This document shows, piece after piece, positions 34,522 through 36,466 of a stretch of DNA of 64,000 bases (within the stretch, counting starts at the first letter, position 1; every line of letters begins with the position of its first letter). A program made the translations under genes and the position numbers. The DNA lies in assembly GCA_009885955.1 (NCBI GenBank), contig VFJS01000054.1:62001-126000 (forward strand). Direction: 5' to 3'. Below the pieces are notes generated by a model. The model did no database searches and was not told the DNA's origin. It worked only from the letters and a program-made list of their open reading frames with translations. This DNA is from Spirochaetia bacterium. Its GTDB lineage: Bacteria > Spirochaetota > UBA4802 > UBA5550.

Positions 34522-34596
34522 GGGTTTTGTACCTTCTTAAATATTTTAACATCCCGGTCATGATACATCGTGGCCCTGGCCCGTCAACCTGTATCG

Positions 34597-34625
34597 GTAG
34601 GGAACGGTTTCAAACCGTTCCCTAC
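34597..34625. repeat. 29-bp REP palindrome, copy 1 (at the 3' end of the transposase gene)
   Basis: Perfect palindrome with half-site GTAGGGAACGGTTT and its complement around one central base. The TAG at its edge (34622-34624, minus strand) is the stop codon of the REP-associated transposase, so the palindrome defines the C-terminus. Confidence 0.9.
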
Positions 34626-35089
34626 TGGACAATACGGTTCAATTCTTCTTTATCCCTGATGATCCGGTCATGATATGATTTCTGCCATTGAAACCGTTTT
34701 TCAGGTTTTAATTCATTTATCCGCCGTGATGAAAATGTTTTAAATCCGCGGATAATTTCGGGTAATCCGTGATGTTTTATTGCCGGAATCCCCGTAGGGA
34801 ACGGTTTCAAACCGTTCCCTACGATATTGCCGGGATTATCAATAATATGAATAATTCCGTGTACATGATTTGGCATTATAACAAATTGATCCAATTTAAT
34901 ATTGTGATAATGATTTAACAAATCATGCCAGCAATTGGTCACAATTTCTCCGTTTCTATTTATTTGCATGATATCATTTAGGATATCGCCGAAAACACTT
35001 TTCCTGCCCTTGACACATATAGTCACGAAATATGCTCCCGGGGTTGAATAATCATACCCCCTAAATCTGTTTAATTTCCGTTCATGCAT
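34622..35089 (-). CDS. REP-associated tyrosine transposase (Y1/IS200-like), C-terminus shortened
   Basis: A 155-residue Y1-type transposase. Typical elements are the N-terminal RFRGYDYSTPGAYFVTICVK, the HUH-containing segment FVIMPNHVHGIIHI near 72-86, and the catalytic-tyrosine region WQKSYHDRIIRDKEELNRIVQ. Family members normally go on with about 15-25 residues after NRIVQ; here the reading frame meets the TAG of palindrome copy 1. A second palindrome lies inside the gene in frame and encodes GNGLKPFPT near residues 100-110. Enzymes of this family move REP palindromes, so it is plausibly the source of the three copies here. Activity after truncation is uncertain. Confidence 0.88.
   Translation of the reverse strand: MHERKLNRFRGYDYSTPGAYFVTICVKGRKSVFGDILNDIMQINRNGEIVTNCWHDLLNHYHNIKLDQFVIMPNHVHGIIHIIDNPGNIVGNGLKPFPTGIPAIKHHGLPEIIRGFKTFSSRRINELKPEKRFQWQKSYHDRIIRDKEELNRIVQ
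34794..34822. repeat. 29-bp REP palindrome, copy 2 (inside the transposase gene)
   Basis: Identical to copy 1 by eye. It lies in frame in the transposase coding sequence. The flank after the palindrome (GATATTGCCG) resembles that of copy 3 (AATATTGCCG), suggesting a shared repeat unit longer than the palindrome. Confidence 0.9.
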
Positions 35090-35101
35090 TGATTGATTCC
35101 A

Positions 35102-35428
35102 TTAATCGTCTCTCGTTACCCTTGTTAGGGCTAATACCTTAATATAGGGAACGGTTTCAAACCGTTCCCTACAATATTGCCGTTCCCTACATATCTTTTC
35201 ATCTGTTAATTTTTTCTTTTCATCTGCTATTTGAAATTCTCCCGAATAATACATATTATCTGGTTCATGTCTTACACGAATTATTTCCGGATAATAAAAA
35301 TTTTCATATCCGTCTTCATAGCCGCTTACAATAACAGGCATATCAATAGGAAAATTTTTTAGAATTTCAATCAATTCACCAACGGAAAAATTGAATCGTT
35401 TATTATCATTTGCTATTTTTCTGCTCAT
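35102..35428 (-). CDS. Small conserved-type hypothetical protein with REP sequence in its C-terminus
   Basis: A 108-residue protein. The first 65 residues have a coherent sequence, FSVGELIEILKNFPIDMPVI, then VSGYEDGYENFYYPEIIRVR, which resembles small hypothetical proteins found in accessory regions. The last part reads through palindrome copy 3 (CRERFETVPY), so the original C-terminus has probably been replaced or interrupted. The start overlaps the end of a decayed gene upstream (ATGA). The function is unknown. Confidence 0.5.
   Translation of the reverse strand: MSRKIANDNKRFNFSVGELIEILKNFPIDMPVIVSGYEDGYENFYYPEIIRVRHEPDNMYYSGEFQIADEKKKLTDEKICRERQYCRERFETVPYIKVLALTRVTRDD
35144..35190. repeat. 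REP palindrome copy 3 plus an extra half-site
   Basis: 35144-35172 is the palindrome with one change in the first base (ATAGGGAACGG...). It is followed after AATATT by a further half-site GCCGTTCCCTAC at 35179-35190. It lies within the small hypothetical gene at 35102-35428. Confidence 0.85.
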
Positions 35429-35780: not shown

Positions 35781-35825
35781 TATTTAATATTTATCTCTGC
35801 AGATTGCAGAGATAAATATTAAATA
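35781..35825. repeat. Perfect 21-bp inverted repeat with 3-base loop
   Basis: Left arm 35781-35801 starts TATTTAATATTTATC and ends TCTGCA. The loop is GAT (35802-35804). The right arm 35805-35825 is the exact complement. It ends six bases before the GAGG ribosome-binding site of the gene at 35843. There is no T-run after it, so it is not a standard terminator. The rest of the gap 35641-35780 is AT-rich with nothing recognised. Confidence 0.9.
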
Positions 35826-35842: not shown

Positions 35843-36466
35843 ATGGCAAAAGTAGCATACAACACGCTGGGAAAGGATGTCCGCAACAGGCTGGACAATG
35901 TGGTATTCTCAAAATGGAAGCATACAAGCTATATAAAGCCTTACATAAAACCGTCAAATCCCAATTCTCCTGAACAGTTGAAGGTGAGAAAGGCATTTTC
36001 AAGGCTTGTAAAGAACTGGAAAGAGGCCGACAATCTCCTGCGCGCAACCTGGGACAACCATGCCAGGGGCTCAAATATGACAGGATACAACGCGTTTATA
36101 GGTGCCAATGCCGCGCTGCAGAAAAATGGCGAGCCCCTGGAACTATTCAAACCCCTGGGTGAGGCCAGCCTTGCATCTTTTCAAACCGTCAAGGGAAGCA
36201 GTGCCGGGGAAATAAAATGCCTCATTAAATATCCCGTCAGTTCAAATGGTAAACATCTCACTATCTTCACACAGACGTCTGTTGACGGCATTGCCACTGG
36301 CTCAATAGCAAGGCATGATATGAACATCATTAGCGGTGATGAATATGTTCTTCCAGGTCTTGAGGGAGGCACAAAATATTTTGTCTATGCAGTGATAACA
36401 AATAACCGGTATCAGGATGCATCAGCAATATCAGCTTCAATCGGAGCAATTTCCGAAGCAGCGTAG
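35843..36466 (+). CDS. Phage-like/DUF6266-like hypothetical protein
   Basis: A 207-residue protein with no signal peptide. The N-terminal half (DNVVFSKWKHTSYIKPYIKP, SNPNSPEQLKVRKAF, LVKNWKEAD, ATWDNHA) resembles DUF6266-type proteins of phage or mobile-region origin. The C-terminal half is beta-rich with a fibronectin-III-like end (EYVLPGLEGGTKYFVYAVIT). GAGG lies seven bases before the ATG, directly after the long hairpin. The exact role is unknown, and no other phage gene is present. Confidence 0.6.
   Translation: MAKVAYNTLGKDVRNRLDNVVFSKWKHTSYIKPYIKPSNPNSPEQLKVRKAFSRLVKNWKEADNLLRATWDNHARGSNMTGYNAFIGANAALQKNGEPLELFKPLGEASLASFQTVKGSSAGEIKCLIKYPVSSNGKHLTIFTQTSVDGIATGSIARHDMNIISGDEYVLPGLEGGTKYFVYAVITNNRYQDASAISASIGAISEAA

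Follow-up and report, generated by a model that had tools for sequence, protein, structure and literature searches.

A REP-associated transposase gene that has probably lost its catalytic tyrosine to its own palindrome

What becomes of a transposase when the palindrome that belongs to it lands in its own gene? The locus described here raises this question, since two double-foot GTAG palindromes appear to flank a gene for a single-strand HUH/Y1 transposase there, while another copy lies in frame in what would be a surface loop. It is part of a window of 64,000 nucleotides from a Spirochaetia bacterium (assembly GCA_009885955.1, contig VFJS01000054.1, positions 62,001 to 126,000), and all positions below are those of the window. 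An earlier sequence-only reading saw a REP transposase gene invaded by its own palindrome and suggested self-limiting transposition or domestication. We consider it likely that the locus is a degenerate REPtron of the kind of TnpA_REP subclass 2.4, from which palindrome copy 1 has removed the catalytic tyrosine. The features are the following:

34597-34625: palindrome copy 1; its minus-strand foot GTAG gives a TAG stop where alignment places the codon of the catalytic tyrosine
34622-35089, minus strand: truncated REP-associated Y1 (HUH) transposase gene, 155 aa, ending ...ELNRIVQ, before the catalytic tyrosine
34794-34822: palindrome copy 2, read in frame within the loop that leads from the HuH motif to helix alpha-C and encoding VGNGLKPFPT (residues 90-99)
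35102-35428, minus strand: neighbouring small ORF, 108 aa, with copy 3 and the half-site in its 3' part
35144-35172: palindrome copy 3, outermost pair broken (A/C, not G/C), in the 3' part of the neighbouring ORF
35173-35190, minus strand: 18-bp unit GTAGGGAACGGCAATATT, a half-site plus spacer, directly before copy 3

These coordinates bear out what had been claimed for the layout, namely a 29-bp palindrome three times in about 600 bp, one copy in frame adding GNGLKPFPT, and one copy with an extra half-site in the next gene. The full 29-nt palindrome is GTAGGGAACGGTTTCAAACCGTTCCCTAC; copies 1 and 2 read GTAGGGAACGGTTT-C-AAACCGTTCCCTAC, and copies 2 and 3 have CGGCAATATY before the foot (gene sense) in common. 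As single-stranded DNA each copy forms a hairpin of 12-14 bp (-12.7 to -16.6 kcal/mol, z -5.1 to -7.3). The gene is flanked by double-foot palindromes of the form GT[AG]G...C[TC]AC, with copy 1 complete and copy 3 short of one foot letter on one side. The 11-nt extra half-site CCGTTCCCTAC (35180-35190) is spaced by exactly 18 bp from its counterpart in copy 3, the two together forming a two-unit repeat of the 18-bp unit, with the same period as a tandem array in a relative (L152, see below). Tandem Repeats Finder reported no 18-bp array at the window locus, and this two-unit relic was seen by eye only. Further along, a perfect 21-bp inverted repeat with a 3-nt loop is found at 35781-35825, about 20 bp before an ORF at 35843.

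The nature of the enzyme is supported by several kinds of matches. The 155-aa protein matches Pfam Y1_Tnp (2.8e-6), the profile of PDB 4er8, the E. coli TnpA_REP (2.8e-8), and NCBIfam NF047646 REP_Tyr_transpos (1e-12), the last with 48.1 bits and so under the curated 80-bit cut-off. An AlphaFold model built on a 38-row alignment has a mean pLDDT of 87.5, and Foldseek places it among ISDra2, IS608 and 4er8 (2xma 1.8e-7, 4er8 3.8e-6), indicating the HUH/Y1 fold; the palindrome-encoded residues 91-97 fall below a pLDDT of 50, and the last helix stops at the truncated C-terminus. The HuH motif NH[IFV]H is present as PNHVHG, with H75 and H77 invariant in the 38 rows, and so is the WQ motif, with W135 invariant and Q136 nearly so, as well as a REP in frame between HuH and Y (copy 2). 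The Y motif YIxNNP, which the relatives have, is missing from the window protein, the stop coming one residue before it. The transposase is closest to TnpA_REP subclass 2.4 (RAYT group 4), an assignment that rests on the remainder of the protein because the class-defining Y motif is absent. The same genome (G000) encodes a second subclass 2.4-like transposase, L060 on contig C101, with an intact YIVNNP; its loop palindrome differs from that of the window, and its GTAGGG foot is the same.

We surveyed relatives with an alignment headed by L033, which is free of the loop insert, to keep the query from favouring sequences with inserts. The survey comprises the best 80 of 571 confirmed stretches in genome contigs, from Cyanobacteria, Bacteroidota, Chloroflexi, Planctomycetota, candidate phyla and others. 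Reading the frame confirms that copy 1 supplies the TAG and that the protein ends after NRIVQ. By alignment, this TAG takes the place of the catalytic-tyrosine codon (Y115 of E. coli TnpA_REP), and with it are lost the metal-binding asparagine four residues on (Y---N) and the C-terminal tail. Class 2 enzymes use the Y of Y---NP as nucleophile and the N as metal ligand, Y115 and N119 in E. coli (Quentin et al. 2018, PMC6006769), and the catalytic role of Y115 in E. coli TnpA is also given by Corneloup et al. 2021 (PMC8266576). YIYINP of 4er8 falls directly after the last residue of the window protein in the profile alignment, and in multiple alignments Y comes next after NRIVQ in the relatives. 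With the pattern used, the Y motif was matched in 79 of the 80 survey loci (the exception being L139), and Y..NP is present in 22 of 23 aligned relatives (all but L044); the search for a full-length homologue ending at NRIVQ found none in either set. One relative, L033 itself, is 65% identical, has the same 29-mer upstream, carries no loop insert and keeps its C-terminus intact. GTAG-derived stops occur in relatives too (e.g., L018, L101 and L128), but downstream of the Y motif. Inspection by eye of the sequence that follows copy 1 showed no remnant of a Y--NP tail; the only match, 12 bp long (CCGGTCATGATA, positions 34554 and 34664), was judged to be probably chance. An empty orthologous site that could date the insertion of copy 1 was not found.

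Since nucleophile and metal ligand are both removed, the window protein is predicted to be unable to cleave, and it should neither cut nor move its palindromes. Judging from the sequence, this transposase copy is probably dead, and the most likely description is a REPtron that inactivated itself and has no dispersed copies. Copy 1, which would sit exactly on the nucleophilic tyrosine codon and turn it into TAG, may have arrived by transposition through the enzyme itself or by a local rearrangement between copies. As a counterpoint to inactivity, the intact L060 transposase could act in trans. The proposal of self-limiting transposition fits copy 1 only, as a one-off self-inactivation at the tyrosine codon; that the in-gene copy 2 limits anything or is a special mark is not supported, since such palindromes are common in intact relatives.

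The whole-genome count of the palindrome, proposed as a check, returned the three locus copies only. Across the 117 contigs (4,773,922 bases) of the window's genome, a search for the 23-nt core that allowed 3 mismatches found nothing beyond these three, and a reversed control gave 0, which excludes chance. Many dispersed REP copies are thus not a feature of this genome; an inactive enzyme fits this absence, though dispersal may never have taken place at all. When 2 mismatches are allowed, the core occurs in 3 of 46 genomes of the order: the window's (three copies, one locus), G021 (one copy, beside the intact, insert-free L033) and G011 (five copies, dispersed). Among survey genomes, that of L068 has eight copies of the palindrome and that of L069 four. 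The broader foot class is present in all 23 genomes with such a loop palindrome, in 1 to 164 copies (median 8), and 2 of the 23 hold a single exact-foot copy. In G003 the loop palindrome recurs only once, immediately 3' of the gene, and five congeners lack it. A plasmid search for relatives gave two distant ones only.

Copy 2 is a different matter. Within the best 80 of 571 stretches, a palindrome with a stem of at least 10 bp lies in the loop between HuH and W in 47 of 80 loci, against a mean of 0.3 for dinucleotide shuffles of the same loops; control regions of the same loci have one in 1 of 80 75-residue N cores and 0 of 80 35-residue C cores. These loop palindromes differ between lineages, with the GTAG-type foot kept in most, and the 38 with a readable foot are read as GTA (Val) in 24 cases, in the next phase (R-frame) in 14 and in the TAG-reading phase in none. 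The window's own palindrome is found in the loops of L068 (VRNGLKPFPT) and L069 (VGNGLKPFPT). A search for a segment of the GNGLKPFPT type without the DNA palindrome found none: (x)NGLKPFPT was seen in three relatives (L068, L069 and L152), and the DNA of all three has the palindrome. An in-frame loop palindrome is hence an ordinary, published family trait, common in otherwise intact relatives. The loop copy of the window represents this ordinary state, and copy 2, read through as ten residues, probably leaves the enzyme unharmed. Half-foot remnants in palindrome-free loops (20 of 33) were not used, about 10 of 33 being expected from the degenerate pattern by our own estimate.

A second Y1 family (DHVH, WQ, YIxKQWxxH), which resembles subclass 1.2, has in-frame palindromes too. 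In the window's genome it is found on contig C77, where both genes (L061 and L063) carry a palindrome of the type GGCGACGATTCGAATCGTCGCC, and among 13 relatives (L169-L180 and L193), one of them without a readable ORF, 6 of the 12 read have one. Table 1 of Quentin et al. 2018 (PMC6006769) lists no REP for subclass 1.2. Subclass 2.4 may thus not be alone in having palindromes within its genes.

Half-sites can also occur in tandem in this loop. Of the transposase of L152, in genome G049, the C-terminal half is seen, with 66% identity to the transposase of the window. At its positions 1503-1787, in the same loop, an in-frame 18-bp half-site repeat of at least 15.8 units, translated as (VGNGDI)n, ends in the palindrome and precedes the C-terminal half; the array length is a minimum, as it is bounded upstream by a run of N, beside which a stretch resembling 23S rRNA was recognised by eye. 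A relative of the window's neighbouring ORF lies directly 3' of this transposase gene, in an order opposite to that of the window. The family of this small ORF (SGYEdGyEnFY) has no Pfam match in the window's member and stands beside a transposase both here and in G049; it may be a travelling partner or a chance neighbour. Three relatives elsewhere match within residues 7-72 only and have open frames of 86-88 aa; because they are short and lack the C-terminal tail, the tail of the window's ORF, CRERQYCRERFETVPY, is palindrome-derived.

Is copy 2 then by-catch of a mobile repeat, or a part of the gene? One rival explanation, which is compatible with our reading of copy 1, sees copy 2 as belonging to the gene, inherited and co-evolving with it as either a cognate site or a regulatory mRNA/ssDNA hairpin, and not as a tolerated insertion. 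It can point to palindrome arms whose identity follows that of the protein cores (Mantel r 0.59, 0 of 5000 permutations, for the 36 of 44 loop palindromes with a usable foot) and to a presence that is clustered on a tree of 78 rows (77 of the 80 survey loci plus the window), with 16 changes against a shuffled mean of 25.2 (0 of 500). A near-identical arm (11 of 12) lies in a locus's own 600-bp flanks in 14 of 36 cases and in the flanks of other loci in 13 of 288 comparisons. The confinement of the palindrome to the locus in G000 and G003, together with the two survey genomes with a single exact-foot copy, points the same way. On the other hand, 33 of the 80 loci have no palindrome, L033 does without one and is intact, and the tree calls for as many as 16 gains or losses, of which the starred branches force only 5. 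Palindromes that hop locally and are then passed on vertically, or along with a REPtron transferred as a whole, would yield the same data without any function. Weighing both sides, we regard this explanation as possible but somewhat unlikely.

A more specific form of the idea is that the palindrome is heritable within the gene: the gene of each enzyme would contain, in frame and in a disordered loop, the site which that enzyme recognises, the two would diverge together by paired changes on both arms, and half-sites would amplify in in-frame steps of 18 bp, as in G049. A first count of two-sided against one-sided changes, 74 against 70 (108 pairs, 36 loci) or 25 against 21 (one pair per locus), is biased, as the detection rule tolerates one mismatch, and was discarded. 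A cleaner count used a pattern fixing the outer 8 bp only and 75 of 534 copies in 23 genomes (9 genomes, among the matches listed); 313 of 321 inner pairs are paired, and near-identical variants show 45 two-sided and 19 one-sided changes. REPs are known for their conserved stems, which is why we do not claim the paired inner changes as new. Template switching in replication can also yield paired changes (Monttinen and Loytynoja 2022, PMC8794818). We hold this form to be doubtful; under it, enzyme and substrate would remain linked through horizontal transfer, and flanking copies would be re-seeded, one of them here destroying its parent.

Beside this count stands a separate pattern in G011 (L047, L049, L051, L053 and L054) and G000 (L061 and L063), where copies have an inner core in common and mirrored outer arms that vary from copy to copy, L054 having a perfect 29-bp stem. 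Positions beyond 13 bp within both stems are identical between copies in 31 of 73 cases in G000 and 23 of 43 in G011. Such varying arms could stem from template switching or from insertion into existing hairpins.

Domestication, the other proposal of the sequence-only reading, would mean that the truncated protein is kept as a REP binder that does not cut, for example an autorepressor acting on the in-gene and flanking hairpins. The frame is indeed open, nothing is missing from the HuH, W and loop regions, the fold is predicted with confidence outside the loop, and all three sites lie in or beside the gene. However, the truncation is seen in one genome only, nearly all relatives keeping Y--NP in the counts given above, and E. 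coli TnpA lacking 34 or 21 C-terminal residues is seriously impaired in both binding and cleavage (data not shown there; Corneloup et al. 2021, PMC8266576). We found no sign that the truncated protein is kept for a new job, and think domestication very unlikely.

Palindromes and repeats are hard to assemble, but a coincidence or an assembly artefact is most improbable given three copies with different flanks in one 184-kb contig and the presence of this palindrome in the corresponding loop of transposases from other genomes; copy 1 by itself might still reflect an assembly error.

We thus return to the degenerate REPtron. In-frame self-insertion was already described in 2018; the TAG of copy 1 at the catalytic tyrosine codon is new, and no report of a REP-derived stop at this position was found in the literature searched, which had few subscription journals. 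The locus would be a natural example of an element disabling its own catalytic residue, and would offer a clean test of the ways in which REPtrons die and of the persistence of copies that are catalytically dead. As for copy 2, in-frame REPs of subclass 2.4 have so far been read as harmless insertions; our survey suggests, as an alternative, that the cognate site may be inherited inside the gene.

The E. coli REP is present in hundreds of copies. With the E. coli TnpA_REP and its REPtron (PDB 4er8), the locus has the HUH/Y1 fold and GTAG-footed hairpins beside the gene in common, whereas the E. coli enzyme retains Y115 and N119 and its REP stem is bulged (Corneloup et al. 2021, PMC8266576). 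Rickettsia palindromic elements are likewise palindromes translated in frame inside genes, but they sit in many unrelated genes and not in the transposase's own loop (PMC3733652). GTAG palindromes inside genes, with GTAG supplying the TAG stop of flanking ORFs, were described by Di Nocera et al. 2013 (PMC3733652); here, it is the gene of the cognate transposase that is affected, with the stop at the catalytic residue. The closest parallel is subclass 2.4 (Quentin et al. 2018, PMC6006769), with its NH[IFV]H and WQ motifs and double-foot GT[AG]G...C[TC]AC palindromes that flank tnpA_REP and insert in frame between HuH and Y, a trait there called unique to the subclass. The window's locus departs from it in that the Y motif YIxNNP has been deleted by a flanking palindrome, the REPs are confined to the locus, and the half-sites follow an 18-bp period.
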